Assembly: GCA_017473615.1 (NCBI GenBank)
Contig: JAFUKL010000032.1
Coordinates: 1-38,208 of the forward strand
Direction: 5' to 3'
DNA from: Muribaculaceae bacterium
GTDB lineage: Bacteria; Bacteroidota; Bacteroidia; Bacteroidales; Muribaculaceae
Length of the DNA stretch: 38,208 bases
How positions within the stretch are numbered: the stretch's first letter is position 1; each line of letters begins with the position of its first letter. The notes under the pieces were generated by a model, which was not told the DNA's origin, searched no databases, and saw nothing but the letters and a program-made list of their open reading frames with translations. A program made the position numbers and the translations under genes. This document shows positions 1 to 32,905 of the stretch, piece by piece.

Positions 1-119
1 AGCTTGTCGGTAGAGCGACAGCCTCCGGCGATTACAGCATAGACCTTAGCGGATATAGCGCAGGAACTTATATAGTGAGTGTAAACGGAGTATCCACCAA
101 AATAGCCGTTAAGAGATGA
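1..119 (+). CDS. 3' end of a secreted protein with a type IX secretion-like C-terminus (partial)
   Basis: An open frame enters from the left edge (first full codon at base 3) and ends with TGA at 117-119. The visible tail ends in GTYIVSVNGVSTKIAVKR. This resembles the C-terminal 'type A' sorting signal of type IX secretion (Por) substrates: a GxY-hydrophobic strand, then a short K/R-rich beta strand at the very end. The stop overlaps the ATG of the DGR target gene (ATGA), so the two genes are probably translationally coupled in one operon. The rest of the protein is outside the window, so its function is unknown. The T9SS assignment rests on this short tail alone. Confidence 0.7.
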   Translation, partial: LVGRATASGDYSIDLSGYSAGTYIVSVNGVSTKIAVKR

Positions 120-2641
120 AAAAGTTGGTTTCGATATTAGTTGCAATGTTCACAATGCTATCGTCAAGCGTATATGCCGATAACGCAATCTACATCTACC
201 GCAACGACGGCAGTTTCAATGCTTTCTTTGATAGTGAGATAGACAGTATCAGCTATTCGGCTACTGACACCTCAGGGGTTGTGCATTCTCGTTATGTGAC
301 CCAGCTTGTGCATACCCCCGACAGCGTTTACCGCATTCCCCTTTCCGCTATCGACAGTATAGCCTTCACCGAGCGTCCCGTGCAATATAATCCTCAAGTG
401 ATAAAACTTTCCGAATCCTATTTACCCTATATAATATCATCGGAAGGACTAAGCATTACATTTTCATCGTCATTGCCTGATGAACAGCGAGTGTACAACG
501 GAGATATATTGCTTTACGAAGGATTTTCCGATATGTTTCCTGATGGCTTTGTCGGCAAAGTTGTGAATATCACCGAGAGCGGCAGTTCCATAACAGTACA
601 ATGTGAAGAAGTGGCAATAGAAGAAGTCTATGAGCAATTAACGGTCATAAGCGATTATGTATTGGAGCAATCGTCGGAAACACCCTCACAATACAGGTTG
701 AAACAAGTAAGTCCCAAGGCAGAAGCGTCGTTGTCCCTAAATTTGGGAATAGAAATACCTGCCGGCGAATCCGGCAGTTTCACTGCGAGCTATTCAGGTT
801 CGTTGAAAGTGCGTGCCATCATCACCATGTCTCCCGGTAAGCCGTTTTATGCCGATTTCTCCTATACCTCAGGACACAGTTTCAAGGGAGAGGTCAAATT
901 AGAAGCCAAAAAGGCGTTCTTCGTCAACGGAGATAAAGATATCAAACTGTTCAAAGCACAATTGCCATTACCCAATTGTCCGATGTTGAAATTCGAGTAT
1001 GTGTTATCGCCTTTCTGTAAAGGCGAATTGACCGGCAGCCTGTCGGCAAGTGTTGAAGTGTCGAGCATTACCACATCCGGCATCACCTTTCGAGAAGGCA
1101 GCGACCCGGAACGCTATAGCCGTTCAAGCGGAGGATTCAGTCAACCCCAATTAACCTCTGCTTTTAATATCAGTGGCTATGTCTTCGGTGGAATCATCAG
1201 CAGTGCCTATTTCGGCACCGTAGGCAATTTTGCCGGAGCCGAGATGAACGTCTATGTAGGTCCCAAGTTGGAAGGCAATCTGAATGTCGATTTTGCCACT
1301 CTTGCCGAAGACGGCATATATGAAGCCGTCAAAGACGCCAAAGTGTCATTCGGCTATGCCGCCGAACTTGAAGCCAAGGCACGCCTGAAACTCATGAAAT
1401 GGGAAACATCGAAAGTCTTCGCCAAAGCCGGTTTCGGTCTTGCTCTTGACGAGCGTCATTTGTATCCGTTATTTTCCGTTCCGTCATATACACAAGGCAA
1501 AGACAAGAGCAAAGTTAAACTAAGTATATCCCCTGTTCGTGAACTACTGTTCCCGGTAAGCGTAGGTATGCGATTGGTCGATGACGAAGACAATCAAGAA
1601 ACTCGCTACAGTCAAACCGATTATATCAATGCCAATCTATGGAGTGGCGATTATGAAGAAGAGTTCTCCTATATCCACCCGGAAAGACATTACACCTGCT
1701 ATCCCATGGTAAAAGCCTTTGGAATGGAAATGCGTGCCACTCCTGTGAAACATTTTGGTATAGACGTAGTCGCCACCACCGGCGTAGTGTCCGAAGTCAC
1801 CTCATCCACGGCCATTGTCAGCGGTTACGGAGATTGTCTTGAGTGTGCCGAAAGCATAGCCGAAATGGGAATAGTGTACGTAGCCGGCGGTATACCGAAT
1901 GTCAGTACCGGAACATTTATATCGAGCGGTCAAAGCACCTCAGGCGAGTTCATTGTAAAACTCACCGGACTGAAAGCAAAAACCACGTATAACTATCGAG
2001 CGTGTGTAATTATCGACGGAAAAGAATATTATGGTGAAGTAAATTCATTCACCACTAAAGAAGATGAGATTACACCCGGTCAAGAGGTAGATTTGGGTTT
2101 GTCGGTGAAATGGGCAGGATGGAATGTTGGTGCGAACTCTCCTGAGCAATATGGCGGTTATTATGCATGGGGTGAGACCGAGGAGAAGAGTGATTACGAC
2201 TATGAAACGTACAAATATTGGCAGGATAAAGATGGTGACGGTTATTGGGATAGCAATGAATTTATCAATATCGGCAGTAATATCAGCGGTACGCAGTATG
2301 ACGTAGCCACTGTAAAGTGGGGTAATGGTTGGCGAATGCCCACAAAGGAAGAAATCCAGGAATTAAATAATAAGTGTAAATTTACAGGTTATACTTATAA
2401 CGGCGTTAAAGGTTGTAAGGTAACCGGTCCTAACGGTAACAGTATCTTCCTACCTGCTGCGGGCTACCGCTACGGTACTTCGCTCTACCATGCCGGCAGC
2501 TACGGCTACTATTGGAGTGGTTCGTTGAGTGAGAGTCTCAGCTACAGCGCGTGGTACTTGTACGTCTACATCCGTGGCTATCCCTACGTGAGCTACTACT
2601 ACAATCGCTTCTACGGGCATTCGGTGCGTCCCGTCCGCTAA
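116..2641 (+). CDS. DGR target: secreted FN3 / C-type-lectin-fold variable protein
   Basis: This 841-aa protein is the diversified product of the retroelement. Residues 1-21 are a Sec signal peptide with a likely cut after VYA. Residues about 22-90 match a repeat-like N-terminal module common in Bacteroidales surface proteins (DNAIYIYRNDGS, then IDSI motifs). Residues about 90-540 are a beta-rich region I do not recognise. Residues about 540-650 look like a fibronectin-III-type domain (TTGVVSEVTSSTAIVSG ... LTGLKAKTTYNYRA). Residues about 651-841 are a Fib_succ_major / FGE-type C-type-lectin fold (VDLGLSVKWAGWNVGA, GNGWRMPTKEE, YYWSGS). The last ~61 codons are the VR, very rich in tyrosine. 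The lectin fold is the usual DGR display scaffold, so the protein probably presents a variable binding surface outside the cell. No lipobox cysteine is seen. The start overlaps the upstream stop by 4 nt. Confidence 0.9.
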   Translation: MKKLVSILVAMFTMLSSSVYADNAIYIYRNDGSFNAFFDSEIDSISYSATDTSGVVHSRYVTQLVHTPDSVYRIPLSAIDSIAFTERPVQYNPQVIKLSESYLPYIISSEGLSITFSSSLPDEQRVYNGDILLYEGFSDMFPDGFVGKVVNITESGSSITVQCEEVAIEEVYEQLTVISDYVLEQSSETPSQYRLKQVSPKAEASLSLNLGIEIPAGESGSFTASYSGSLKVRAIITMSPGKPFYADFSYTSGHSFKGEVKLEAKKAFFVNGDKDIKLFKAQLPLPNCPMLKFEYVLSPFCKGELTGSLSASVEVSSITTSGITFREGSDPERYSRSSGGFSQPQLTSAFNISGYVFGGIISSAYFGTVGNFAGAEMNVYVGPKLEGNLNVDFATLAEDGIYEAVKDAKVSFGYAAELEAKARLKLMKWETSKVFAKAGFGLALDERHLYPLFSVPSYTQGKDKSKVKLSISPVRELLFPVSVGMRLVDDEDNQETRYSQTDYINANLWSGDYEEEFSYIHPERHYTCYPMVKAFGMEMRATPVKHFGIDVVATTGVVSEVTSSTAIVSGYGDCLECAESIAEMGIVYVAGGIPNVSTGTFISSGQSTSGEFIVKLTGLKAKTTYNYRACVIIDGKEYYGEVNSFTTKEDEITPGQEVDLGLSVKWAGWNVGANSPEQYGGYYAWGETEEKSDYDYETYKYWQDKDGDGYWDSNEFINIGSNISGTQYDVATVKWGNGWRMPTKEEIQELNNKCKFTGYTYNGVKGCKVTGPNGNSIFLPAAGYRYGTSLYHAGSYGYYWSGSLSESLSYSAWYLYVYIRGYPYVSYYYNRFYGHSVRPVR
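2452..2633 (+). repeat. DGR variable repeat (VR)
   Basis: This segment aligns without gaps to the template repeat at 3773-3954 (constant offset of 1321). There are 25 mismatches in 182 nt, and in every case the template base is A: 15 read T, 5 read G and 5 read C in the VR. The last changed base is 2611. Bases 2612-2633 are identical to the template and GC-rich, as expected for the initiation-of-mutagenic-homology (IMH) end. The VR ends 8 nt before the last base of the stop codon of the target gene. Confidence 0.96.
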
Positions 2642-2678
2642 GCGAGTGCGCAGCGCGAGCGATTTAAATTTTTTAAAA

Positions 2679-2706
2679 GTCGCCCACGATCTTGATTGTG
2701 GGCGAC
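2679..2706 (+). other. Inverted repeat / hairpin just downstream of the VR
   Basis: The arms GTCGCCCAC (2679-2687) and GTGGGCGAC (2698-2706) are perfectly complementary over 9 bp with a 10-nt loop. No T-tract follows the 3' arm, so it is a poor intrinsic terminator. Known DGRs carry a hairpin/cruciform a short distance after the IMH that helps recognition of the recipient site. The position here, 45 nt after the VR end and between the target and accessory genes, fits that role. The DGR role is inference from position. Confidence 0.7.
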
Positions 2707-2727
2707 CGATTTCAAAACACATAAATT

Positions 2728-3228
2728 ATGTCAACCATAAAAGAACGGATAGAACGAGAGCAGTCAAATATCGATAAGATATATTTGTACAAGGAGGGTA
2801 TATTTTACAAGGCATACGAGCGTTCGGCATACTTGTGGATAACTAATATATGCAATTACGAAATCAAAAAGCGATATGTGAAAACCGTAGATCGAATGAT
2901 TGTTTATATAGGATTCCCTATATCGGCTTTAGAGAATCGGCTCCTAAACAGAGTATATAGGGAAGAATCGGAATATACCATTGTGGAACCCGACACTGCG
3001 AGCGTAATAGATGCCGAGGCTTATAATGAATGGCATAAGGCGTTAGAAAACGAAAAAGAAAAATGCGGCTTTCCTGAGTGTAATGAGCCGAATGCCGAAG
3101 CCATAGTGGATGAAATAATGAAGTATCCTATCGAGACGAGTTCTCCCATAGAGTGCATGATGTTTTTGTCACAATTAAAGAAGCGTTGCGTTGCCGATGG
3201 CAGTATATACAAATCTTCCGGTGTATGA
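2728..3228 (+). CDS. DGR accessory protein, MutS domain-I-like
   Basis: This 166-aa protein lies between the target gene and avd. Residues about 1-75 (KIYLYKEGIFYKAYERSAYLW ... VDRMIVYIGFPISALENRLL) resemble the N-terminal mismatch-recognition domain of MutS, in which a hydrophobic-G-x-F-Y-x-x-(Y/F) motif precedes an acidic/A segment. MutS-like (MSL) accessory genes are described for some DGRs, and this one sits in the right place. Residues about 95-166 carry no motif I recognise. The gene overlaps avd by 32 nt in another frame, which suggests coupled translation. The start ATG follows the VR hairpin by 21 nt. The family call is from motif reading only; the DGR association is firm from context. 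Confidence 0.65.
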   Translation: MSTIKERIEREQSNIDKIYLYKEGIFYKAYERSAYLWITNICNYEIKKRYVKTVDRMIVYIGFPISALENRLLNRVYREESEYTIVEPDTASVIDAEAYNEWHKALENEKEKCGFPECNEPNAEAIVDEIMKYPIETSSPIECMMFLSQLKKRCVADGSIYKSSGV

Positions 3229-3556
3229 GGAATGCTATCAGCTGTTTTTGCATTTCACACAATTGAGCATGAAAATGCAACGCGATTACCGCTACTCACT
3301 TGGTGAAGATGTGAAAAAATTGCTGATGGCGGTAATATTGGATATATATAAGGCTAATTATAAGAAAGATGCGGCAGGCTTGGAGAGCGTAACCGATGCA
3401 AAGGATCGAATGGTGGAGCTGCAAGTGATACTCAGGCTGCTTAATGAGGTGAAACAGATACCTGATCGTCATTATATGATGCTTACCGAAAGAACTGTGA
3501 GTATATCAAAACAGCTTGTAGGATGGGAAAAAGCTATGATAAAGTCTAAAAGATGA
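3197..3556 (+). CDS. avd: Accessory variability determinant (Avd), four-helix bundle
   Basis: This 119-aa protein begins MAVYTNLPVYEECYQLFLHFTQLSMKMQRDYRYSLGEDVKK, the standard opening of DGR Avd proteins of the 23S-intervening-sequence/four-helix-bundle family. Avd forms a basic pentamer that binds the reverse transcriptase and template RNA and is needed for retrohoming in the Bordetella phage system. The predicted protein is nearly all helical with many K/R residues and ends in KAMIKSKR. ATG 3197 is chosen over an in-frame TTG two codons earlier, because homologues start just before the xYEECY-type motif. It overlaps the upstream gene by 32 nt. The template RNA region begins directly downstream. 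Confidence 0.88.
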   Translation: MAVYTNLPVYEECYQLFLHFTQLSMKMQRDYRYSLGEDVKKLLMAVILDIYKANYKKDAAGLESVTDAKDRMVELQVILRLLNEVKQIPDRHYMMLTERTVSISKQLVGWEKAMIKSKR

Positions 3557-3772
3557 GGACATAGGGGCGGGATGCAGCCTGAATATGCCGATTCAAGGAT
3601 CGGTGTAGCGTGCTTAAGTGATTTCAGGCGGCAGGTCTGCCATGTAACAGGAAACGCAGAAAGTGAAACGAAAAATCAAAAGCTGCGGAGTGGCAGAAAA
3701 TAACAGTATCGGCAACAGACTTTGCGAAAAGCAACTTTTGCTGCCGTTCAATACAGCGTGTCGCCAAGAAGA
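3557..3772 (+). ncRNA. avd-TR spacer, probable structured 5' part of the DGR template RNA
   Basis: This 216-nt stretch between avd and the TR contains nested inverted repeats. An outer pair, GCCTGAA (3577-3583) with TTCAGGC (3623-3629), encloses an inner hairpin, CCGAT (3588-3592) with ATCGG (3599-3603). Next come GGCAG/CTGCC (3630-3641) and a small hairpin AGCAA/TTGCT (3730-3742). In the Bordetella phage DGR, sequence flanking the TR is part of the RNA that the RT-Avd complex binds. That this spacer has the same role is inference. A GTG-initiated frame open through the TR into the RT starts at 3663. Confidence 0.5.
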
Positions 3773-3954
3773 ACCTGCTGCGGGCAACCGCAACGGTACT
3801 TCGCTCAACAATGCCGGCAGCTACGGCTACTATTGGAGTGGTTCGTTGAATGAGAGTAACAGCAACAACGCATGGAACTTGAACGTCAACATCAATGGCA
3901 ATCACAACGTGAACAACAACAACAATCGCAAATACGGGCATTCGGTGCGTCCCG
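3773..3954 (+). repeat. DGR template repeat (TR)
   Basis: This is the invariant template for VR 2452-2633. It has about 56 adenines, 25 of which differ in the VR; no other base differs. Read in the VR frame it is dominated by AAC and AAT codons (for example GNRNGTSLNN and NNNNNRK). Randomising the two A's of AAY cannot create a stop codon. The 3' end, CATTCGGTGCGTCCCG, is identical in TR and VR. The TR is read in the same direction as avd and the RT, and is in frame with the RT coding sequence. Confidence 0.96.
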
Positions 3955-4004
3955 ATAGAGAAATCGCACGTTCCGTCCCGGTCTCATCTTATAAAAGGTA
4001 TGAA

Positions 4005-5171
4005 TTGACTAAGGAGCAACTGCTTGTGGATTTGTTCAGAGCGTATAAGGATGCTCGCCGACACAAGAGGAGAAAAATAAAGCAAGTGGAATTTGAAATG
4101 GATATGGAGACGCGTTTGGTCGAGCTGCGGGACGAATTATGGGACAGAACATACAGACCCGGCGCAAGCATGTGTTTCATTATAAAGGAACCTAAAAAAC
4201 GTGAGGTTTTTGCCGCAGAATTTAAGGACAGAATCGTACATCATTTGTATTATAATTATGCTTCACCTGTTTTTGAACGTACATTTATAGAGGATAGTTA
4301 CAGTTGTCGGAAAGGGAAAGGCACTCATTTCGGAGTAAAACGGTTGGTGTCTCACATCAGGTCGTGTTCTGATAACTATAGGAGAAATTGCTATGTGCTG
4401 AAATGCGATATAAAAGGGTATTTCATGAATATAGACAGGAAACGTTTGTTGAAAATATGTAATGAAAGCCTTGACAGAATGGCATTTCATGAATCGAACA
4501 CAAGGGGAAAGAAATGGGCTGAGATTGTAGATTTTGAGTTTGTTAAATATCTTGGAGAAGTGATAATACTGAACGATCCCGTAGAGAATTGTATATTGAA
4601 AGGCTCTGAAACCGATTGGAACGGCTTGCCCGAAAGCAAAAGTCTGTTTAAGACGGCTAAAGGGTGTGGATTGCCTATCGGCAATCTTACGTCTCAGTTA
4701 TTCAGCAATGTGTATATGAATGTTTTCGACCGGTTTGTTAAACGCCAATGCGGTCAGTATCACTATGGCAGATATGTGGACGATGCTTATATAGTGAATG
4801 AAAGCAAGCAAGAATTGCGTAGTTTGATAGATGTATTAAGGCTCTCGCTTAAAGATAAATTAGGACTGAAATTACATCCCGATAAAACCACGATTCAAAA
4901 GGTGGGGTACGGGGTAGAATTCTTAGGGGTGTATGTTAAGCCGTATAGGGAATATGTTAGAAATAGTACAAAAATACGGATAAGGAAAGCTGTAAACGGA
5001 TTGTTGGGTGCAACTCGTGAGAAAATGGAGCATTCGGTTAATTCTTATTTGGGGATAATGGGGCATTGCCGGAGTTATAATCTGCGACGGAAGATATTTT
5101 GCAGTAATGCGAGCATTATGAGTAACGGAAACTTTGATACATCGATGAAAAAGTACAGGAAGTTGTTTTGA
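4005..5171 (+). CDS. DGR reverse transcriptase
   Basis: This RT copies the TR RNA with adenine-specific errors. The N-terminal DGR block LTKEQLLVDLFRAYKDARRHKRR ... VELRDELWDRTYRPG is followed by KRE.FAAEFKDRIVHHLYY, FIEDSYSCRKGKGTH, and the DGR hallmark GLPIGNLTSQLFSN (S230-Q231), where other RTs have a different motif 4. The catalytic box YVDD is at residues 257-260, followed by a thumb-like C-terminus. The start is uncertain. The frame is open back to GTG 3663 and so includes the whole TR. The first ATG (4098) would remove conserved N-terminal residues. TTG 4005, giving 388 aa, keeps the conserved block and lies just after the TR. No upstream Shine-Dalgarno site helps to decide. The RT identity is secure. 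Confidence 0.93.
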   Translation: MTKEQLLVDLFRAYKDARRHKRRKIKQVEFEMDMETRLVELRDELWDRTYRPGASMCFIIKEPKKREVFAAEFKDRIVHHLYYNYASPVFERTFIEDSYSCRKGKGTHFGVKRLVSHIRSCSDNYRRNCYVLKCDIKGYFMNIDRKRLLKICNESLDRMAFHESNTRGKKWAEIVDFEFVKYLGEVIILNDPVENCILKGSETDWNGLPESKSLFKTAKGCGLPIGNLTSQLFSNVYMNVFDRFVKRQCGQYHYGRYVDDAYIVNESKQELRSLIDVLRLSLKDKLGLKLHPDKTTIQKVGYGVEFLGVYVKPYREYVRNSTKIRIRKAVNGLLGATREKMEHSVNSYLGIMGHCRSYNLRRKIFCSNASIMSNGNFDTSMKKYRKLF

Positions 5172-5300
5172 ATTTTCTTAAAAACAGCCCGGTATTACCT
5201 GCGCAATTTGACGAAAAAACCATTCCAAAGTACTGCTTAAAATAATCCCGAAATAAAATTAAAACAGTTTCTTAGTGTCGGGAGAGAATGATAAAATGTG

Positions 5301-5308
5301 TAACTTTG
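5301..5308 (+). promoter_or_regulatory. Probable -7 box for mfd
   Basis: TAACTTTG matches the Bacteroidetes -7 consensus TAnnTTTG, 31 nt before the mfd start. No convincing -33 TTG is seen at the usual distance. Confidence 0.5.
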
Positions 5309-5339
5309 CGTAAATTTAAACGACTTCTGAAGAAAAGCT

Positions 5340-8300
5340 ATGACGATAGATGAACTTTGTGAGACGCTTAATCCCAAAGCGCGTAAAGCTACGATAGAAA
5401 GTTTGTTGAAAGGTGACAGGCAGAGCCGCCGTGTAATAGACGGTCTTTCCGGGTCGTCCCCGGCAGTTCTGTTTTCCCGATTTCCGCAGCAAACGTCTCC
5501 ATATCTTATAGTTGTTAACGATTTGGATGAAGCGGGCTATCTGTATCATGATTTATGCCAGATAAACGGAGAGGACAAAGTACTGATATTCCCATCGGGA
5601 TATAAACGCGATATAAAATACGGTCAGGTGGACGCCCCCTCGGAAATACTTCGCACCGAGGTGCTTAATAAATGGTATAACGACCGCAGTATCAGTTGGG
5701 TGGTGACTTATCCCGAGGCGATGGCGGAACAGGTGTCGTCGAAAAAAGAGATAGAGGATACCACCATAACGCTTACGAAAGGCGGTGAGGCAGATATGAC
5801 CGAGCTTGCCAAACGCTTGCGCGGATATGGATTTCAAAATGTGGATTATGTATATGAGCCGGGGCAATTTGCTCTGCGCGGCTCTATTCTCGATGTTTTC
5901 TCTTATTCCAACGAGTTGCCCTATCGTGTGGATTTCTTCGGTGACGAGATTGAGAGCATACGCACATTCAATGTAGAAACACAGCTTTCGGAACAGAATC
6001 TCGACAGTATCTTTATCCTCGGCGGTTCTTGCTCGGAGACGGAGCAAGGAACGTCATTGTTGCACTATATAGGCGATGATACCGTATTGCTTTGCAGTGA
6101 TGCCGACTGGCTGCGCAGCCGTATAAAGTCGATAGGGGAAGAGAAACTGTCGGACAGCACAATTATTGCCAATGAAGGCGATAAGGATGCAATGAAGAAA
6201 ATCGTTGATACAGATGAATTTATACGCCGATTTAATTCCCTGCGTCGTGTGGATTTCAATGCCGGGGAAACACAGGAAACCGTAGGCAAGAAATTATCAT
6301 TGCATTGTGCACCGCAGGGCATATTTCACAAGAATTTCGATATTATAAGCAAATCCTTTCATGATTTCATGGAGCAAGGATATAGGATATATATATTGTC
6401 GGATAGCGAAAAGCAAATAGAGCGTTTACGACTGATATTTGAAGACCGAAACGACAAAATCGAGTTTACGCCCGTAACCCGCACGTTGCACAGCGGATTT
6501 GTAGACAATGATTTGAAAGTGTGTGTATTCACCGACCATCAGATATTCGACCGTTTTCATAAGTATAATCTGAAAAGTGACCGTGCCCGCTCGGGAAAAT
6601 TGGCGTTGTCGTTGAAGGAACTTAACCAAATAGAGGTGGGAGACTATATTGTGCATGTCGATCACGGTGTGGGCAAGTTCGGCGGACTTGTGCGTACCAC
6701 GGTCAACGGAACGTTGCAGGAGATGATAAAGCTCACCTATATGAACGATGATATTATTTTCGTGTCGATTCATGCGCTTCACAAACTTGCCAAATACAGA
6801 GGAAAAGAAGGTGTACCGCCCAAACTGAACCGTTTGGGTTCCGGTGCATGGAATAAGATGAAAGATCGCACCAAGAGCAAACTCAAGGATATAGCCCGCG
6901 ATCTTATAAAACTATATGCGGCGCGAAAGGAAGAAAAGGGTTTTGCTTATTCCCCCGATGGATATTTGCAGCAAGAGTTGGAGGCTTCATTCATATATGA
7001 AGATACCCCGGATCAGATAAAGGCCACGGCTGCCGTGAAAGCAGATATGGAAAGCGGAAAACCTATGGACAGGCTTATATGTGGCGATGTGGGTTTCGGA
7101 AAAACCGAAGTGGCTATCCGAGCAGCATTTAAGGCAGCTACCGATGGTAAGCAGACTGCAGTCCTTGTGCCTACCACAGTTCTTGCTTATCAGCATTACA
7201 ACACATTCAAGGAACGTCTTGCCGATTTTCCCGTAAAGATAGAATATTTGAGCCGTGCGAGAAAGGCAAAGGACGTGAAACGTATTACCGAGGAACTTGC
7301 CGAAGGGAAAGTGGATATAATCATCGGTACTCATAAATTGATAGGCAAGTCGGTTAAATTTCATGACTTAGGGCTGCTTGTGGTTGATGAAGAACAGAAA
7401 TTCGGCGTGTCAGTTAAGGAAAAACTGAAACAGATGAAAGTGAATGTAGACACTCTCACCATGTCGGCAACTCCGATACCTCGCACATTACAGTTTTCAC
7501 TTATGGGTGCAAGAGATTTGAGCGCAATCACCACACCTCCTGCCAACCGTTATCCGATACTCACTTCGGTAAATGCACTAAATGATGATATTGTGTGTGA
7601 GGCAATAAACTTCGAAATGTCGCGTAACGGTCAAGTCTTTTTTGTGAATAACCGCATAGAGGGGCTGTTTGAGATAGAGAACATGATACATCGTCTTGTT
7701 CCCGATGCCCGTGTGGTGGTGGGGCATGGACAGATGCCTCCGGAAAAATTGGAGCAGGCTATTATCGACTTTGCCAATCATGACTATGATGTATTGCTTG
7801 CCACTACCATTATAGAGTCCGGAATAGATATGCCCAATGTGAACACTATTATTATAAATAATGCGCAGAACTTCGGCTTGAGCGAACTGCATCAATTGAG
7901 AGGACGAGTGGGGCGTAGTTCCCGCAAAGCATTCTGCTATTTGCTTGTACCTCCGGGCAAACCGCTTACTCCGGTGGCGCGCCGTCGTTTACAAGCAATA
8001 GAGAGTTTTGCGGAGCTTGGTAGCGGAATACACATTGCCATGCAGGATTTGGATATAAGAGGTGCAGGCAATCTGCTTGGAGCAGAACAGAGCGGATTTA
8101 TTGCCGATTTAGGCTATGAAACCTACCAGAAAATTCTGAAGGAGGCTGTGCTTGAGCTTAAAACGGAGGAATTCAGCGAGGTGTTTGATGATGAAACCAA
8201 GCAAAAGTCTGTTGTAGAGGAGGAAGAACCTACCTATGTGGCAGATTGCACGATAGAGAGCGATATGGAACTATTCCTGCCTGCTACATACGTACCTCAG

Positions 8301-24034: not shown

Positions 24035-25798
24035 ATGCGATATTTTCACTTTTTCATATTATTTTCAGTGGCGTTTGCTTTAGGCTGCACTCGTTCGGTC
24101 GATGAAAGACTTATGCAAGTTAACGCCTTTGCCGATGGCAGCAATATTGATAGTGCTGCGGTGGTGCTGCAAAGCATTGCCGTTGACAGTCTCAGTGAGC
24201 ATAATCGCCGGTATTATGACCTTATGTCGATAAAGTTGCGCGATAAATCCTATCAGGACATCAAGGGTGATACGGCAATCACCGAATTGATTCGCTACTT
24301 CGATGACAATGGCACACACTCCGAGAGAGCCGAGGCTTATTATTATGGCGGACGCGTATATCGTGAAATGGGCGACCTGCCACAATCGCTCGATTATTTC
24401 CAAAAGGCTCTCGATGCACTCGATGATGATAACACCCATGCTCGCCTAAAAGGCAAAATCTGTAGTCAAATGGGGCAGATGTTTTTTGACTTACAGATGT
24501 ATAAGCAAGCTATACCCAAATTTCAAATGGCTGCTCGTTATAATATAACGTTTTGCGATTCTGTAAATTTGGTTTATAATTATAGGGAACTTAGCGACAT
24601 CTATTATAAATTAAGCAAATCGGATAGTACGATATTTTATTTAGATAAGGCGTTGAAAATTGCGAAAGCATTGAAGGATACACCAAAATGCGAAATTGAA
24701 ATAAGAACAAGTATCGTAGATTATTATATTAAATGGGGGTATTATGAAAAGGCTAAAACAGAATTTAATGCTATAGAACAAATAATACAAGAGAAAGATT
24801 TCCCCGATTATTTATTAATGACAGGCATAAATATTTATATAATCGAAAAAAACTATGACAAATTAGCTGAATTTGCTAATAGGCTATTGCAATCGCATTT
24901 CATAAACAGCAAGATGTATGCTTATGAAATACACGCTGAGCTTGCCAAATTCAAAGGAAATAAGGATGATGCCTTTGACAATATCATGAAGTACAAGACA
25001 TGCTTGGACTCTATTGATAACAATGTCTCTCGCGAAGCCGTAATACATCAAAATTCATTCTATAACTATTCACTAAAAGAAAAAGAGAATACTAAATTAA
25101 AAAACAGACAACTTACGATAACTTTTACAGCAATATGTTCCATACTCGTACTTATAATATTTGTACTCGTTGTTATTTATATCAATAGGGTAATTAAAAG
25201 AATAAATAATACTTTAAGCGTAGAAAATAAACAATTGCATAACACCTGTGAATCTTTAGAGCAGGAAAAACATATATTGTTATCGGAGAAAGAGTTGATG
25301 AAAATGAACTTAACTCAACAACTCAATAAAATATCTTTACTGGAAACTAACATAGAATCGATTCGTACAAGTTTGTCCGAAAAAGAAATTACCGATAAAA
25401 TAAACAAGCAAATATTACTGAAAATAGAAAATATCGATACCGATAAATATATTCCTGATAATGAAATTATCAATTCTGAAATATATGCTTTATTTAAACA
25501 AAAAAGCAGAGGAGAGAAACTTAATATCACGGAAAGTCATTGGGAGGAATTAGATATGTTGATAAATCGTGTTTGTATTGATTTTAGAAATAAAATAACA
25601 TATCTTAGCGAAAATATAAGCACTGCCGATTACAGAATATGTCTTCTTGTAAAGTGTAAATTTTCAGTTAAAGAAATAGCAGAAATAACGAGCAGGATAC
25701 CGAATGCAGTGACAAATCAAAGAAAACGTTTATATAAAAAGCTGTTCGGAGTGGAAGGTTCTCCAAATGATCTTGATCGCTATATAATCTCATTATAA
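24035..25798 (+). CDS. TPR sensor / transmembrane / HTH regulator
   Basis: This 587-aa protein has an N-terminal signal or lipoprotein-like sequence ending in ALGC18. TPR repeats fill residues about 85-340 (AEAYYYGGRVYREMGDLPQSLDYFQKAL, ICSQMGQMFFDLQMYKQAIPKF). One transmembrane helix lies at about 357-382, followed by a coiled coil at about 385-460. The C-terminal LuxR-like helix-turn-helix starts at about 528 (STADYRICLLVKCKFSVKEIAEITSRIPNAVTNQRKRLYKKLFG). This is a known Bacteroidetes layout for a one-component membrane regulator: periplasmic TPRs sense, and the cytoplasmic HTH binds DNA. GC falls from about 50% to 25-28% within the gene near 24,480-24,540, so the gene looks mosaic. It probably controls the AT-rich locus just downstream. 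Confidence 0.82.
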   Translation: MRYFHFFILFSVAFALGCTRSVDERLMQVNAFADGSNIDSAAVVLQSIAVDSLSEHNRRYYDLMSIKLRDKSYQDIKGDTAITELIRYFDDNGTHSERAEAYYYGGRVYREMGDLPQSLDYFQKALDALDDDNTHARLKGKICSQMGQMFFDLQMYKQAIPKFQMAARYNITFCDSVNLVYNYRELSDIYYKLSKSDSTIFYLDKALKIAKALKDTPKCEIEIRTSIVDYYIKWGYYEKAKTEFNAIEQIIQEKDFPDYLLMTGINIYIIEKNYDKLAEFANRLLQSHFINSKMYAYEIHAELAKFKGNKDDAFDNIMKYKTCLDSIDNNVSREAVIHQNSFYNYSLKEKENTKLKNRQLTITFTAICSILVLIIFVLVVIYINRVIKRINNTLSVENKQLHNTCESLEQEKHILLSEKELMKMNLTQQLNKISLLETNIESIRTSLSEKEITDKINKQILLKIENIDTDKYIPDNEIINSEIYALFKQKSRGEKLNITESHWEELDMLINRVCIDFRNKITYLSENISTADYRICLLVKCKFSVKEIAEITSRIPNAVTNQRKRLYKKLFGVEGSPNDLDRYIISL

Positions 25799-25813
25799 GA
25801 CATTTACACTCCA

Positions 25814-25863
25814 TTTGTGTGTTTTTTGTGTGTTCCATTTTTAATTTGTGTGTTTTTTGTGTG
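25814..25863. promoter_or_regulatory. Four phased TTTGTGTG boxes (candidate operator)
   Basis: TTTGTGTG occurs at 25814-25821, 25825-25832, 25845-25852 and 25856-25863. Spacing is 11 nt within each pair and 31 nt between pairs, about one and three helical turns, so all four face the same side of the helix. The array ends 9 nt before the -33 TTG of the next promoter, as expected for an activator site. The regulator encoded just upstream is the obvious candidate, which is inference. Confidence 0.65.
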
Positions 25864-25872
25864 ATAAAAAAC

Positions 25873-25904
25873 TTGCAAATTACATAATTGTATTCTTTTC
25901 TTTG
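25873..25904 (+). promoter_or_regulatory. Promoter of the peptide maturation/export-like locus
   Basis: TTG (25873-25875), a 21-nt spacer and TTTCTTTG (25897-25904) repeat the geometry of the promoter at 8727, with one mismatch in the -7 box. The start codon of the SPASM gene is at 25930. Confidence 0.6.
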
Positions 25905-25929
25905 TGGCAAACATTAAAACTATATTGAA

Positions 25930-26478
25930 ATGAAAAAGAGTGATTCTCTTATATCAGATATAACAAAGTATATACCAACAGATATAAGACATAGAATCAA
26001 AGTTGATTTACAAAAAGTTTGGCAAATACAGGAAAAAACAATCCCAATGGATTTATTTCTAAAATTACAAAGAGATTTTGTCTCATCGGGATTTCAATTA
26101 TGCATTGATCATGTTTTTGCTATATGTTATGTTGAGAAACAGCACTATAACATGATTTATTATAATGGAGGTGTTGAAAAATGCGACAAACAACCTATGG
26201 ATAAATTGCGTGGGTATTTAAATGCTGATGGTAATATAATATGGAAAGAACGTCCTATTTTCCCCGATTACAATGTTTTTGACTCAAATAGCGTATGCAA
26301 TAATTGCTATTACTATCCTCTATGTTATTCCGGTTGTCCTGTAAGGCGAGAAGAACTCATAATAAAAAGCAACAAACTGACGTGTGGTTATGAAGATTAT
26401 TATGAGGTGTTTGAACAGCGTATAGTGGATTATTGTTGGCGTGTAATACACAATAATAAATTAAATCAATATAAATAA
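25930..26478 (+). CDS. SPASM-domain protein lacking the radical SAM core
   Basis: This 182-aa protein matches only the C-terminal part of radical SAM/SPASM peptide maturases. Residues about 18-85 (HRIKVDLQKVWQIQ ... YYNGGVEKCDK) resemble the end of the barrel plus the first SPASM cysteine region. The segment GYLNADGNIIWKE and the cluster C-x2-C-x5-C-x3-C (VCNNCYYYPLCYSGCP), with a further TCGYED cysteine, form the auxiliary 4Fe-4S motif. There is no CxxxCxxC radical SAM motif in the protein, and no remnant of one in the 130 nt upstream. It is either a truncated maturase or a stand-alone binding/chaperone module. It is the first gene after the phased operator, followed 59 nt later by an outer-membrane protein gene. 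Confidence 0.75.
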   Translation: MKKSDSLISDITKYIPTDIRHRIKVDLQKVWQIQEKTIPMDLFLKLQRDFVSSGFQLCIDHVFAICYVEKQHYNMIYYNGGVEKCDKQPMDKLRGYLNADGNIIWKERPIFPDYNVFDSNSVCNNCYYYPLCYSGCPVRREELIIKSNKLTCGYEDYYEVFEQRIVDYCWRVIHNNKLNQYK

Positions 26479-26537
26479 TTATATTTGTTTTTATTTAATT
26501 TTTCCATTGTTTGTACAACCTCATTATTTTCTAAAAA

Positions 26538-28613
26538 ATGAAACATCTAAATTATTTTATCAATAGTGTTATAAGAATTAAGGTGCTTGTATTTCTTTCT
26601 CTATTTTGTTTATTTGTTTCTGCTCAAGAAATGAAAGTGAAAGAACTTGGAGAACTGTTGGTAAAAGCTAAACAGATTCAAAAAAATGCTGAAAAAGAAA
26701 CAATCTATATCACCGACTCTTTACGAAAAAATTCGGCTAACACAATACAACTCTTAGGTAAAATACCCGGAATAAGAACCGATATCGTTTCCGATGAAAT
26801 TAAAATCGGGAAAGACAATAATATTCCGGTTTTGGTAAATGGGAAAGAGGTTGGTATGGGCTATGTGGCAGGAATCAATCCGAAACGCATAAAAAAGATT
26901 GAGATACAACGCTATCCTATAGGTAAATATTCTGATTATCCTATACTGCTCAATATTGAATTATTTGAAAATTACATTGGTTGGGATGTTGCTGCAAATG
27001 CTCGCAGTATATTATCTTTAGAAAATGAACATACCAATATGGAGAATGTTGGTATAAATCTGACGATAACAACTAACAAACTGAATGTTTTCGGCTCGGT
27101 CGGATACAACCGCCAAGAACAGTATCATTTAAAAGGATATGAAAGAACTTTCGGCTCTGATTATACATATATGACTTTAAACAAAGATTATCATCATCCC
27201 AATCACTCAGAGAATGGTAATAAGGTAAATTTCAGTATGGGTATAGATTACAAAATCACACCAAAACATACCATATCGATACAGACATGGAGTAATATTT
27301 CTGAGACAAAGAATAAGACACGCTATGACGTTATGTATAAAGATGTTACAACAAACCAAACGAATTTCAATCCATATAATACACAAAACCATACGATAGG
27401 AGTGTTTTATAAAGGTTCGGTTAATAATAAATTGCATTTCTCAAGTGAATTACTTTATGACTATTATGATATTGACGAACAAAACAAATTCATAACCAAT
27501 ACAGAAAACATTCAAACGAGACATGACGGTTGGAAGAATTATTGGAGGTACTATGCTCAAAGTTCATATATAATGAACGATAAGTTGTCGGGGATTTTAT
27601 CTTATAGCTTTATCAGGCGTAGTTACAAAAACACAGACAAAGTGAGCCGAAAAGAACGATATTACTCAAAAGACACAAGAAATAAAGCCGATGTAATGTT
27701 AAGATATCGCCCATTGAACAATCTTGACTTTATTGCCGGTCTAAGTATGCTTGGGGTGAGATGTCAAAACAGAGAAGAAGCAAAAACTCATATATCGTGG
27801 ATGCCTAAAGCGAAATTTTATTATCAACCTGCAAAATGGGTGGATTTTACATATAACTATTTCTGTGATGTGGAATATCCAAATCTTGATATGCTCTCTA
27901 CTGTGAAATCATATATTGACAATAAATTATATACTACAGGAAATCCCAATTTAAGAGAGCGTATAATGCATTACTCGGAACTACAAGTGACATTCCCAAA
28001 AATAGTGAAATTAAGTTATATGTGGAAACATTCCGAAAATGATAAAACATTATGGTATGATGTATCAGATGATGCTGCATACGTCACACAAACGATGACA
28101 GATTGTCAATATAGTCATCATTATTTAGGTTTAGAGGGCGATTATAACCTACCAAAAGGATTTAGAATATATGCCAATGTAAGTTATCAATGGTATAGAC
28201 GGTTCATCGACAAGAATAATGGAGGAACAACAGGGCGTACGTGGTATTTGGATACCGAGTTCTCATGGGTAATACCTAAAACAGATATCAATCTGATGAC
28301 CGGATATTTTTTGAGGCATGATAAATTGCCATTACTACAAGGGAAAGAATACGGACAAGAAGAATCTTTAAAGTTTGTTGTGGGAAAAACGTTTTTCAAC
28401 AATCGTATGCCGGTGTCGTTTATGGTGACAATTCCTACTTGTGCCATATCAAAACACACATATCAGAGAGTTGACCTGCCGGGATTCAAATCATACAATT
28501 GGAGTGATGATAGAGTTAATCGATTCATGGTGGCACTGAATGTGCGTTATAACATAGGTAAAGGTAGAGTGAACCGCAGTCAAAATAAAGCAATCATCGA
28601 CAACGAAAAATAG
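26538..28613 (+). CDS. TonB-receptor-like outer-membrane beta-barrel protein
   Basis: This 691-aa protein has a signal peptide (cleavage likely after LFVSAQ). A plug-like domain lies at about residues 32-145 (TIYITDSLRKNSANTIQLLGKIPGIRTD, VLVNGKEV, INPKRIKKIEIQRYPIGKYSDYP). A long barrel follows with repeated aromatic beta-strands (KHTISIQTWSNISE, DFTYNYFCDVEYPNL). It lacks the N-terminal carboxypeptidase-like domain common in SusC-type proteins, and no TonB box is clear. A barrel of this kind beside a PCAT exporter and a SPASM protein suggests passage of a peptide product across the outer membrane. Only 9 nt separate it from the PCAT gene. Confidence 0.78.
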   Translation: MKHLNYFINSVIRIKVLVFLSLFCLFVSAQEMKVKELGELLVKAKQIQKNAEKETIYITDSLRKNSANTIQLLGKIPGIRTDIVSDEIKIGKDNNIPVLVNGKEVGMGYVAGINPKRIKKIEIQRYPIGKYSDYPILLNIELFENYIGWDVAANARSILSLENEHTNMENVGINLTITTNKLNVFGSVGYNRQEQYHLKGYERTFGSDYTYMTLNKDYHHPNHSENGNKVNFSMGIDYKITPKHTISIQTWSNISETKNKTRYDVMYKDVTTNQTNFNPYNTQNHTIGVFYKGSVNNKLHFSSELLYDYYDIDEQNKFITNTENIQTRHDGWKNYWRYYAQSSYIMNDKLSGILSYSFIRRSYKNTDKVSRKERYYSKDTRNKADVMLRYRPLNNLDFIAGLSMLGVRCQNREEAKTHISWMPKAKFYYQPAKWVDFTYNYFCDVEYPNLDMLSTVKSYIDNKLYTTGNPNLRERIMHYSELQVTFPKIVKLSYMWKHSENDKTLWYDVSDDAAYVTQTMTDCQYSHHYLGLEGDYNLPKGFRIYANVSYQWYRRFIDKNNGGTTGRTWYLDTEFSWVIPKTDINLMTGYFLRHDKLPLLQGKEYGQEESLKFVVGKTFFNNRMPVSFMVTIPTCAISKHTYQRVDLPGFKSYNWSDDRVNRFMVALNVRYNIGKGRVNRSQNKAIIDNEK

Positions 28614-28622
28614 TTCTAAAAT

Positions 28623-30815
28623 ATGGCAAAGTTTCCTTTCATAAAACAACAAGACTCCATGCAATGTGGGATTACTTGCCTGCAGATGCTATGTAAATAT
28701 TATGGAAAGATTTTTTCTTTGTCACATCTATCAGAATTATGCTTTGCTACAACAGAGGGGGTGTCATTACTTGGAATAAGTGATGCAGCAAGCAAGTTGG
28801 GATTACATACTCTGTGTGGGCGTATGAGTCTTGTACAAATAAAAGAATGTCCGTTACCTTGCATTTTACATTGGAATCAAAACCACTTTGTTGTACTTTA
28901 CAAAGTGAAAAAAGGTAAATACTATATAGCAGACCCAAGCAAAGGATTGCTTACTTACAATGAATGTGAATTTAAGGATCATTGGATTAGTTCGTTGGAA
29001 AGAGACGAGGAATGTGGCATTGCTATGTTACTTGAGCCAACACAAACATTTTATGAAATGGAAGAATTTCATAATAATGATGAGCGTCGTTCGGTTCGTT
29101 TTCTCATGGGTTACATCAAGCAGTATAACCGATTTTTTATTCAAATCATACTTGGTCTTGTAGTTGGTTGTGGATTACAACTTATTATGCCATTTCTTAC
29201 GCAAGCAATAGTAGATATTGGTATAAAGCGGCAAAATATAGGTATTGTGTGGCTTATCTTGTTGGGTGAATTGTTTATTGTTCTCGGGCAGACATCGATG
29301 GATTTCATTCGTAGATGGTTGTTGCTACACATAAGTATGCGTATAAACATTTCACTTGTGAGTGATTTTTTTATTAAGTTACTTAAATTACCTATGTCAT
29401 TTTTTGATACCAAGTTGATGGGTGATTTATTGCAACGCAAAAACGATCATGCACGTGTAGAAAAGTTTCTTACATCGCAAACGCTTGATGTTATGTTTAT
29501 GATAATCAATTTTATAGTGTTCGGTGTAGTATTACTAATATACAATCGCTTGATTTTCGGCATATTTTTAGCAGGTAGTCTGATATATGCCGGCTGGATA
29601 ATAATGTTTCTTAATAAACGTAAAACATTGGACTACGAATTGTTTGAAAAGCAAGCAGAAAATAACAACAAGACATATCAATTCATTACAACCATACAAG
29701 AAATTAAATTACAAGATTGTGAGCAACGGCGTCGTTGGGAATGGGAAGACGTGCAGGCAGACCTGTTTCAAGTACAAATGAAATCTCTAAAATTACAACA
29801 AACACAAGAGGCCGGGAGCATTTTTATTAACGAGATTAAAAATGTGATTATTACTGCTATGGCTGCAACGGCTGTAATAAATAACTCTATGACATTAGGT
29901 ATGATGCTTGCGGTTCAATATATTATAGGACAACTGAATGCTCCTGTGGAACAATTTATGAGTTTTATTTATTCCTTACAAGATGTAAAAATATCACTTG
30001 AACGCATTAACGAAATCCATTTACAGAAAAATGAAGAAAAACAACAAAAACATCATGAGACTTTTGATAAGAACAAGAAAGATATCGTATTAAACAATGT
30101 TACATTCAAATATGATCCACACGCTTTAAAGAATACCATAGAGAATATTAATTTTACCATTCCCGATGGAAAAGTGACAGCAATTGTGGGTACTTCAGGT
30201 AGCGGAAAAACCACTATAATAAAATTATTACTTGGTTTTTATTCTGTACTGGGAGGCAAAATAACAATAGCCGATAAGAATATTAATGAATACAATATGA
30301 AATGGTGGCGTAGGCAGTGTGGTGTGGTAATGCAAGATGGTGTTATCTTTTCTGAATCAATAGCACGAAATATTGCCGTAGGTGATGATGAAATAAATAC
30401 AGAAAAATTATTGAAAGCCGCAGAGATTTCATGCATAAAGGACTTTGTAATGGGATTGCCATTAAAATTTAACACAAAGATAGGACAAGATGGGATGGGG
30501 CTGAGCCAAGGACAAAAACAACGTATTCTCATCGCACGTGCTGTGTATAAGAATCCTAAATTTATTTTTTTTGACGAAGCTACTAATGCTCTTGACACTA
30601 AAAATGAACGTTGTATTGTGGATAATCTGAATGAATTTTATAAAGGGCGTACGGTTGTGATTGTAGCTCATCGTTTGAGTACGGTAAAAAATGCGGATCA
30701 AATCGTAGTACTTGACGATGGGCATATTGTTGAATTTGGTACACATAGTTCTCTTATCAAGACTAAAGGCAAATATTTCAATCTTGTAAAAAATCAACTT
30801 GAATTAGGACTATAA
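28623..30815 (+). CDS. Peptidase-containing ABC exporter (PCAT, C39 family)
   Basis: This 730-aa exporter fuses a leader-cleaving C39 protease, a six-helix membrane domain and an ATPase. The protease triad is visible: Q9/C15 in QQDSMQCGITCLQML, H88 in WNQNHFVVLYKV, and D104 in IADPSKG. Membrane helices lie at about residues 160-440. The ATPase has Walker A GTSGSGKTT (about 523), signature LSQGQKQRILIARA (about 627), Walker B FIFFDEATNALD (D651) and the H-loop in VAHRLSTV. Such proteins cut after a double-glycine leader and export the core peptide. All key residues are intact, so it is probably active, but no double-glycine precursor gene was found in this window. Confidence 0.93.
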   Translation: MAKFPFIKQQDSMQCGITCLQMLCKYYGKIFSLSHLSELCFATTEGVSLLGISDAASKLGLHTLCGRMSLVQIKECPLPCILHWNQNHFVVLYKVKKGKYYIADPSKGLLTYNECEFKDHWISSLERDEECGIAMLLEPTQTFYEMEEFHNNDERRSVRFLMGYIKQYNRFFIQIILGLVVGCGLQLIMPFLTQAIVDIGIKRQNIGIVWLILLGELFIVLGQTSMDFIRRWLLLHISMRINISLVSDFFIKLLKLPMSFFDTKLMGDLLQRKNDHARVEKFLTSQTLDVMFMIINFIVFGVVLLIYNRLIFGIFLAGSLIYAGWIIMFLNKRKTLDYELFEKQAENNNKTYQFITTIQEIKLQDCEQRRRWEWEDVQADLFQVQMKSLKLQQTQEAGSIFINEIKNVIITAMAATAVINNSMTLGMMLAVQYIIGQLNAPVEQFMSFIYSLQDVKISLERINEIHLQKNEEKQQKHHETFDKNKKDIVLNNVTFKYDPHALKNTIENINFTIPDGKVTAIVGTSGSGKTTIIKLLLGFYSVLGGKITIADKNINEYNMKWWRRQCGVVMQDGVIFSESIARNIAVGDDEINTEKLLKAAEISCIKDFVMGLPLKFNTKIGQDGMGLSQGQKQRILIARAVYKNPKFIFFDEATNALDTKNERCIVDNLNEFYKGRTVVIVAHRLSTVKNADQIVVLDDGHIVEFGTHSSLIKTKGKYFNLVKNQLELGL

Positions 30816-30850
30816 TATATTTATTAATTAGAAATCTATGGTATAGAAAG

Positions 30851-31018
30851 ATGGAAAAGAAATATGATAAAATAGAGCTTCGAAGTGACAAAGTCAAAAA
30901 TATTATTGGTGCAAAGCCATCGTGGATTTTGCAATATGGAATTTCTGTAATTAGCACAATTATAGTAATTCTGCTAATTGTGATACTTTGTTGTACCGGA
31001 ATAACAACTATACTATAA
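30851..31018 (+). CDS. 55-aa membrane protein matching only the N-terminal anchor of HlyD adaptors
   Basis: The peptide starts MEKKYDKIELRSDKVKNIIG, continues AKPSWILQYG, and ends in one transmembrane helix and TAA. The segment IELRS.KV..IIG..PSWIL.YGI is the typical start of Bacteroidetes HlyD-type membrane-fusion proteins encoded after PCAT genes. In full adaptors a coiled coil and lipoyl domain of about 350 residues follow the helix; here the frame stops right after it. It lies 35 nt after the PCAT gene, same strand. It may be a remnant of a deleted hlyD or a functional miniature partner. The downstream sequence shows no lipoyl-domain remains in the frames examined. Confidence 0.65.
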   Translation: MEKKYDKIELRSDKVKNIIGAKPSWILQYGISVISTIIVILLIVILCCTGITTIL

Positions 31019-31141
31019 CTCTATTATAATTGATTTAAACTTAGTGAATCACTAATGATGTATAATTACCAAAACGAATTATTTATGAGAACTCTTACAA
31101 CATTACTATTTCTTCTTTTATTTAGATTAAAGAATGGTATT

Positions 31142-32905
31142 ATGGGAAAACGACTGTTATTTTGTGTAATATGCGTTTGTTCACTATTTAATCTTATCGC
31201 TCAAGAGTCTGTCTTGAGCGATAGATTGAAAAACGACGGCTTAAAAGTAAGACAGATTCCAATGAGTGAAGAAGCCGTAAAGGCATATTTCAAGGGAATG
31301 AAAGGAATTGTATATGCCACGATATATCCGGCTGCCAACTGTCCGAGGTGTGAAGCAGCTATAATGGATCTTTACAAAGGAATTAAAAACCTTTCAAAAG
31401 AAAATCAAACGGTGCTTATAACAGCATATAAAGATTCTATTGAGGCTAAGGCTTATAATCAAGCAAAAGGTTATAAAGCCGACAATTATATCTATGATAC
31501 GGAGAAAAAATATAGAGACTTTCTGTCTTTCAGTTTTGGTAATCTTCACGTAGTATATATGCTGAAAATTGATGTGGATAGGGGACTTGTCCTGCTGGGT
31601 TTTAGTGCTGATGATACAACGCCCGAATTTATATCTGAGTATGTGAATTCTAAAGAATTGATGAAATGTGAGGATTTTAAGCCTATAAAAAGTCCTTATA
31701 CCTATAATAGAATAGAACCCAAAAATTGTGATACACTTCATGTGGGTGAAATCCATACAATGAAAATCCCGCAAGAAATTAATGTAAGTGAAGTACTTTT
31801 TAAACCATATTACGAAGGGAACAATATTGTATTTAATGAGAAATTAAGAAACTCTATTTTGTTGTTAGAGTTGGATGAGAATACATCGACTTTACATTTC
31901 AAGAAGGAAATAACATCCGATAGTGTTGAAAATAAAAAATACATAAATGTTCCACAATGGTATTATAACCATCAAAAGAAAAATGGAAATCTTTATCATA
32001 TAGCATTGTCTCCGGTTATTGCCAATGATAAAATAGTGGTTTCTTATTCCTTACCGAATCTTTTTGTGGTAAAGGAAACCGATGGAGAAGTAGAAGCTAT
32101 AGGTTATAAGAATGAACCGTGCGTTATATTTCGTGATATAAACGGAGATAAGGATCGAGATGTGTTTTCATTGATAGAAACCAATGAGAACTATCATACC
32201 AATCACTTTACATTCGGAGTAAGTGACAGTATCCTGGTAATGCCTTGCGTAAAACAAACGTGGGCTATGAATTTTGAGAAAGAGAAATATCAAGATATAC
32301 CATCGATGAATCCTTTTGACAGTCGATTTTATGATGATAATAATCCTCTTTTTAGGGCTGTCGATAGCAAGACCGGACTGACAAAAGAATATTTCGGAGA
32401 TTTGGATGAAATACATAGAAAAACATTGACCGGATATTATTTCACTTCGCCTGTTTTTGATTCTTACAAAGGCAAAGCTGTTTATACCGATGGTTTATCG
32501 GGCATGATACATTTGGTGAAAACAGATAAATTAAATGAAACCGTAAGAACGTTTAATGCTTTCTCTGTCGACTTAGATATATTGCCCGAACCGGATTCAA
32601 CAAAGTTTTATACAAAAGACTATTTATTGACATATTTAGAGCCTTTGAGCCGTAAAATCTATGACATGCGGTTAGGTTGTTGCGGTAAACTTTATTGTAT
32701 ATTGCAATATGGTATTAATAAAGGAGATTTGGGCGATTTGACATTTACTTATGTGGAAATTGATATAAAAAACGGAGATACGCATGAATATGTATTGCCA
32801 AAACATGATGATGCTTTGAAATACGGGTTGTGGAGAAAAGACGGAGTTGTTAAACCCTATATGATTTGTCGTGACCGGGTTGTAGTTTTCGGTCAAAACA
32901 AATAA
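31142..32905 (+). CDS. Secreted thioredoxin-like / beta-propeller-like protein
   Basis: This 587-aa protein is read from MGKRLLFCVICVCSLFNLIAQES, a signal peptide; the frame is open back to 31055, but that start adds a second hydrophobic stretch. Residues about 45-180 look thioredoxin-like: KGIVYATIYPAANCPRCEAAIMDLYKG with a C67-P-R-C70 redox motif, then VVYMLKIDVDRGLVLLGF. The remainder is beta-rich with blade-like segments (NLFVVKETDGEVEAIG, GMIHLVKTDKLNETV, LTFTYVEIDIKNGDTHEYVL) as in 6-bladed-propeller proteins of Bacteroidetes. It is the last gene of the AT-rich block and may handle disulfides or bind the exported peptide. The exact role is unknown. Confidence 0.6.
   Translation: MGKRLLFCVICVCSLFNLIAQESVLSDRLKNDGLKVRQIPMSEEAVKAYFKGMKGIVYATIYPAANCPRCEAAIMDLYKGIKNLSKENQTVLITAYKDSIEAKAYNQAKGYKADNYIYDTEKKYRDFLSFSFGNLHVVYMLKIDVDRGLVLLGFSADDTTPEFISEYVNSKELMKCEDFKPIKSPYTYNRIEPKNCDTLHVGEIHTMKIPQEINVSEVLFKPYYEGNNIVFNEKLRNSILLLELDENTSTLHFKKEITSDSVENKKYINVPQWYYNHQKKNGNLYHIALSPVIANDKIVVSYSLPNLFVVKETDGEVEAIGYKNEPCVIFRDINGDKDRDVFSLIETNENYHTNHFTFGVSDSILVMPCVKQTWAMNFEKEKYQDIPSMNPFDSRFYDDNNPLFRAVDSKTGLTKEYFGDLDEIHRKTLTGYYFTSPVFDSYKGKAVYTDGLSGMIHLVKTDKLNETVRTFNAFSVDLDILPEPDSTKFYTKDYLLTYLEPLSRKIYDMRLGCCGKLYCILQYGINKGDLGDLTFTYVEIDIKNGDTHEYVLPKHDDALKYGLWRKDGVVKPYMICRDRVVVFGQNK

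Follow-up and report, generated by a model that had tools for sequence, protein, structure and literature searches.

The stretch of DNA analysed here, called the window, is the 38,208-nucleotide contig JAFUKL010000032.1 of a Muribaculaceae bacterium (assembly GCA_017473615.1), and it constitutes the entire contig 26 of a metagenome-assembled genome (MAG) of 2.0 Mb in 51 contigs, 78% complete. Its first 5,171 nucleotides hold a diversity-generating retroelement (DGR). A target gene (116-2641, 841 amino acids, aa) ending in a variable repeat (VR, 2452-2633) is followed by an inverted repeat (2679-2706), an accessory gene (2728-3228), avd (3197-3556), a leader (3557-3772), a template repeat (TR, 3773-3954) and a reverse transcriptase (RT) gene whose open frame, when read through the TR from a GTG start, covers 3663-5171 (502 aa). 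All these parts lie on the + strand. An earlier reading made from the sequence and its translated open reading frames (ORFs), here called the sequence-only reading, had described a complete chromosomal DGR with all parts intact and in one direction. Completeness and chromosomal setting are borne out by the repeat pair, by the profile matches of RT and Avd and by housekeeping neighbours. The order, the strand and the open frames also stand, but the RT can be called intact only with a non-ATG start. What was overlooked is the position of the TR, which lies in frame within the open frame of the RT. That the locus is a host-chromosomal DGR varying the 3' end of a putatively secreted protein we consider highly probable.

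The TR and the VR were recovered by an unaided repeat search as a pair of 182 nt with 86% identity and a spacing of 1321. Direct alignment is free of gaps and shows 25 differences in 182 positions, all 25 at adenines of the TR, a count which agrees exactly with the one made before. The TR contains 56 adenines, and the hypergeometric probability of adenine-only differences is 1.5e-15. From TR to VR the changes are A to T (15), A to C (5) and A to G (5). They alter 21 codons within the repeat, two listed codons that differ only outside it being left out, and change the residue in 20, Tyr being the result in 12. The adenine-only signature argues for recent function of the DGR. Adenine-directed repeat pairs were found in 18 of the 34 stretches scanned, the window counted among them; a nineteenth candidate pair, in L047, was put aside as the similarity of two paralogues. 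By eye an AGCACTT-like motif is seen 3' of the TR in many loci (L002, L017, L052-L054, L058-L060, L084) and the VR side of some of them reads GCATTT, possibly a difference between IMH* and IMH (initiation of mutagenic homing).

The RT matches RVT_1 above its cut-off (E=3.3e-18). It also matches PDB 8ub7 'Reverse transcriptase' (E=8.3e-40), which we take to be the enzyme of Bordetella phage BPP-1. The best NCBIfam model is a group II intron RT/maturase, below cut-off, and no DGR-RT model was returned; in a tree the RT groups with RTs from loci having A-directed repeats. The translation carries the motifs IGNLTSQ and YVDD, and an SQ motif of DGR-type RTs has been described (PMC3521204). The stop-to-stop frame of the RT, 3648-5171, encloses the entire TR in frame. 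Its first ATG, at 4098, lies within the conserved N-terminus of the RT, and this is why the gene is intact only with a non-ATG start. Besides the GTG at 3663 an alternative start is TTG 4005 (4005-5171, 388 aa). The presumed RT-start Leu codon is TTG in the window, TTA in L003, CTT in L058 and CTG in L059, so there is no conserved start codon at this place and that candidate was rejected. Scans for promoters and terminators gave results at shuffle level, and a Bacteroides-like promoter pattern, in a possibly inexact form, had no match. The RT may be translated from a start that lies upstream of its template or within it.

The layout was then compared across a larger set of 54 RT loci; L097 had too little upstream sequence and was dropped, leaving 53. 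Not included in the set were L006, L007, L010-L015, L018-L020, L029, L081-L083 and L098, and also duplicates. The fused layout, a long frame with an Asn-rich segment inside, is present in 15 of the 53, namely the window, L003, L022, L025-L028, L030, L031, L058, L059, L088 and L092-L094; in most of the 38 non-fused loci the TR was not located. Finding the TR blind to frame, from the adenine-directed pairs of 18 loci, places it within the RT ORF in 5 (the window, L003, L022, L054, which is the place of L025, and L056, which is the place of L028) and outside in 13, among which L002, L052 and L053 have it near the RT. Over the 90 nt before the TR of the fused loci, with TR starts partly set by anchors chosen by eye, the RT frame has 0 stops and the other two frames have 39 and 32; the RT frame is open in 15/15 cases and the other frames in 2/30. 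No in-frame Asn-rich TR-like segment with a closed leader was seen in the list of 53 RT loci. Thirteen of the 15 fused loci have an in-frame ATG upstream of the TR, at a distance of 21-57 codons; L059 has only TTG or GTG. An ATG at most 32 codons from the RT motif occurs in 2 of the 15 (L059, inside the TR; L093, in the linker) against 33 of the 38 others, counted after L026 and L028 had been moved to the fused group. The Fisher test gives P=2.3e-5 at a split of 80 codons, which places L026 and L028 (72-73 codons) with the non-fused loci and leaves relatedness uncorrected.

The RT match was long enough in 51 of the 54 loci for a row in the tree. The fused label, carried by 15 rows, requires 6 changes on this tree, at least 5 of which are forced by well-supported branches, while shuffled labels need 13.3 on average and 0 of 500 shufflings came as low. 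The window belongs to a 12-row RT clade with support 100/98 in which 8 rows are fused; a second clade, fused throughout, is made up of six rows of the family to which the window belongs, and L022 is the fifteenth fused row, on a long branch. Within the genus the RT was found in one of three genomes, the window's own (E<=0.001). It occurs in 10 of 247 genomes of the family and 28 of 393 of the order (E<=1e-30, own genome included), both sets being drawn from larger groups. There are 28 relatives in phage records and 22 in plasmid records (E<=1e-20), all below 60% identity; the top phage relative has 43.5% and the top plasmid relative 33.9% identity among the best 8 of 28 and the best 8 of 22. 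As to single loci, L022 (5782-5883) is on a viral contig with one TR, also within its RT frame, and two VRs (5159-5260 and 4736-4833); L003 is a Bacteroidales locus which contains the L099 sequence, taken from a genome of the same order as the window; and the Paludibacteraceae contig of L002 carries a second RT (L017:5704-6554), broken by a shift of frame and the loss of parts.

The stretch before the TR could also hold a structured RNA. In six relatives (L058:1154-1292, L088, L059, L084, L090 and L060) it folds as an enclosing stem with two hairpins, and 13 of the 18 base pairs change on both sides somewhere among the six. The covariation score is 0.744, compared with 0.316 after shuffling (0 of 500 as high) and at most 0.215 when slid; these scores are favoured by the structure having been drawn by us from the same sequences, and L058 and L088 are nearly identical. 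The number of further pair types, 21, is not unusual against 18.7 in shuffled sets (77 of 500). An RNA model made from the six was searched in 69 sources and recovers those six by construction. In the window it gives a weak match at 3666-3782, across the junction of leader and TR, possibly a diverged form of the structure. This match scores 14.4 bits, with E=0.65 in a search of 464,832 bases and E=8.5e-4 in an unfiltered search of 601 bases. A stronger match at 2371-2461 (25.8 bits) extends into the 5' end of the VR, and sequence shared by the repeats therefore drives part of the score. Rfam had no match in window positions 1-5400 (E up to 1) and none in the leaders of the six relatives, where two matches elsewhere (E 0.24 and 0.96) are to animal microRNA families, far below the gathering score.

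A model for the locus can be formulated as follows. The TR RNA would be reverse transcribed by the RT together with Avd, with errors at adenines, and the cDNA would replace the VR at the 3' end of the target gene, by which mostly Asn codons would become Tyr and other residues in the target. The RT frame runs from the leader through the TR, the RT having no separate ATG after the TR in this lineage, and one RNA segment would be both template and perhaps coding sequence of the RT N-terminus. The anatomy, the adenine bias, the family relations and an open frame that recurs in relatives are what was observed. That the DGR is active, that its target is secreted and binds a ligand, and that the TR is translated is what we infer. 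We tentatively propose, giving it somewhat less than an even chance, that in a Bacteroidales DGR lineage the TR belongs to the coding sequence of the RT gene: translation would begin in the leader, pass through the TR and continue into an RT with an Asn-rich, template-encoded N-terminal segment, each transcript would have to be either translated or copied, and the structured RNA kept after the TR in BPP-1 may here lie before it, as the six relatives suggest. With the comparisons made here the fused layout becomes a testable proposal, namely that translation of a DGR RT begins upstream of its own template or inside it. Were this so, one RNA would tie the supply of template to that of enzyme, the same bases would be constrained both as codons and as template, and any RT start predicted 3' of the TR would be wrong for this lineage.

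Several observations weigh against this proposal. The 15 fused loci were for the most part picked out by their long frame, so that the set is in part biased by its selection, and it includes several closely related loci. No ATG occurs in the leader of the window, which has only GTG at 36 and 27 codons and TTG at 11 codons from the TR. Over the 90 nt upstream of the TR a second frame of the window is open as well, so that the window alone says little. The share of differences falling at third codon positions is 40/80 in the leaders of L003 and L092-L094, 30/68 in their linkers and 19/46 in the leaders of L026-L028, compared with 120/208 in the TR and 322/499 in the first 150 RT codons, all counts being summed over non-independent pairs. 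Leader and linker are by this measure mildly coding-like and weakly support translation; the higher share within the TR tells nothing either way, since the TR is a mirror of the coding VR. L058 and L088, whose RTs are 91% identical, keep leader, TR and linker almost unchanged, which points to constraint at the RNA level. A rival explanation is an ordinary DGR with an intergenic TR. A rare codon at or just behind the 3' end of the TR (TTG 4005 or GTG 3945) would then be the RT start, and the frame through the TR would be open only because the TR mirrors the coding VR. The N-terminus from TTG 4005 would have about the length of those of the ATG-started relatives L002 and L060, a GTG near the 3' end of the TR is present in several fused loci, and the codon-position tests are, as said, weak. 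Yet the start codon is not conserved at the Leu position, L003 has no ATG, GTG or TTG between the 3' end of its TR and the RT motif, and an intergenic TR leaves the open leaders of all 15 loci unexplained; we put the chance of this explanation slightly short of one in two. A decayed DGR, a fossil whose RT can no longer be produced, would account for an RT core without an ATG start and for the failure to find the RT in the two other genomes of the genus examined (E<=0.001). The coding frames are open, however, and other lineages share the same RT layout. A long-inactive pair should moreover collect other changes, and there are none besides the 25 at adenines, which makes a fossil very improbable.

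What the proposed variation would act on also has two readings. The target has an N-terminal signal peptide by eye and a C-terminal domain of probable Lcl_C/FISUMP type, which matches PF07603 (Lcl_C) with E=9.4e-5 and 23.1 bits, below the gathering cut-off of 34.9, and TIGR02145 with E=0.0052, below cut-off. Lcl_C is matched by 8 of 9 aligned target domains including that of the window (E<=0.01), Fib_succ_major by 2 of 9. PF07603 is presumably the renamed DUF1566. DUF1566 is given as the commonest Pfam domain among DGR targets, with a C-lectin fold (PMC6642488). Comparison of the target alignment with PDB sequences returned two matches only, both at chance level. Most probably the target is a binding protein that works outside the cytoplasm. 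It could instead face the periplasm or the cell inside and sense internal ligands away from the surface, and in favour of this no lipobox and no sorting tail is seen on the target, whose C-terminus is the VR. We hold this to be unlikely in view of the signal peptide, of the tail of the upstream gene, and of the description of cellular DGR target clusters as having in their majority a transmembrane domain or signal peptide (PMC8144416). The upstream gene (3-118, + strand), truncated by the contig edge to its 3' end, ends in a weak type IX secretion system (T9SS) type A sorting tail (TIGR04183 E=0.0051, PF18962 E=0.0039, both below curated cut-off), and its stop overlaps the start of the target (ATGA).

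As a DGR the locus adds a further cellular case to a group that is large and well known. With the BPP-1 DGR (mtd-avd-TR-brt) it shares target, TR, Avd, RT, an inverted repeat after the VR and adenine-directed differences; unlike that phage system it is chromosomal and has a MutS_I-like accessory gene. BPP-1 is described with a structured spacer between TR and brt (PMC12875486), where the window has about 50 nt between the TR and the alternative TTG start. The in-frame template in the RT gene is a variant of an arrangement already in print, a TR overlapping the RT ORF, listed as "group 3" of DiGReF (PMC3521204). What the window has in common with group 3 is the place of its TR, towards the 5' end of the RT frame, which is here an open frame and not an annotated ORF. 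A single literature search, aimed at TR-RT overlap and start codon, found no report of translation through a TR. The group 3 description, as far as consulted, gives the position, and what is measured here is the open leader, the missing ATG and the spread over RT clades. Bacteroides DGRs are cited as varying type V pilus tips (in PMC12632263); these are likewise cellular Bacteroidales DGRs, but the target of the window has no pilin family match (Pfam E<=0.001; NCBIfam E<=1).

The strong inverted repeat 3' of the VR (2679-2706, + strand), a possible retrohoming hairpin, has arms known from the repeat search and folds into a 12-bp stem with the 4-nt loop CTTG, 45 nt from the VR. It differs from the consensus given for phage DGR hairpins, a GRNA loop at 4-34 bp from the VR (PMC3240598). 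Strong stems at what we judge to be a similar place are seen in L003, both L047 targets, L053, L054 and the paralogue C4; other strong stems occur in L002, L017, L049 and L052, and weaker folds only in L048 and C35. L047 (4759-6835) encodes two tandem proteins, zinc-ribbon-like by eye, both with an Lcl_C-type C-terminus and each followed by a near-identical hairpin, and between them lies a short MutS_I-like stretch similar to the accessory gene; no RT match was found in the L047 stretch.

The MAG contains two further copies of the target domain, C35:27734-28279 (- strand, 76% protein identity) and C4:1655-2218 (+ strand, 64%). These copies are loci L045 and L046, and each is truncated by a contig end at near-identical sequence, a sign that a repeated gene family probably interrupted the assembly there. 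The DNA match of C35 to the TR is limited to 72 nt at the start of the TR, after which the sequences diverge. Of the mismatches in it, 10 in all, 6 fall on the 14 adenines that the TR has in this part (P=0.0026) and 4 lie elsewhere, and no hairpin comparable to that of the window follows this copy. On these grounds (the 72-nt DNA match of C35, mismatches outside adenines and no comparable hairpin) the two copies were rejected as current remote VRs, and we treat them as putative paralogues or former targets.

The accessory gene (2728-3228, + strand, 166 aa) encodes a putative MSL-type protein, like MutS domain I. Its sole family match, to PF01624 MutS_I (E=0.0062, 17.2 bits), is weak and below the cut-off of 20.6; MutS_I is matched by 4 of 5 aligned accessory members, the window included (E<=1). 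A comparison of the accessory alignment with PDB sequences gave chance-level matches only, with no MutS among them. The protein presumably has a MutS-like C-terminal helix. An MSL with Pfam PF01624 has been named as a DGR accessory (PMC10053308). The avd gene (3197-3556, + strand) matches PF22296 bAvd (E=1.4e-7, 32.4 bits, cut-off 40), NF033474 Avd (E=7.9e-8, 32.6 bits, cut-off 80), both below cut-off, and PHROG 3206 'Avd protein of DGR' (E=2.9e-14). Its start is more likely ATG 3197 than TTG 3191 (ORF 3191-3556), and with either start it overlaps the accessory gene.

The sequence-only reading had also stated that no phage genes are nearby. Nineteen neighbouring ORFs, part of those of the window, were scanned. 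Fifteen have a Pfam match at E<=1e-10, for example to TRCF/mfd, 2-oxoacid:ferredoxin oxidoreductase, FabF, RelA/SpoT, PhoH, SAICAR synthetase and AbiEii; none of the 19 matches a family that is phage by name at this threshold, in agreement with the statement. Farther along the window an ATP-binding cassette (ABC) exporter with a C39 peptidase lies at 24035-32905 with outer-membrane and unassigned neighbours, and an AbiEii-type nucleotidyltransferase is found at the right end (37342-38148).

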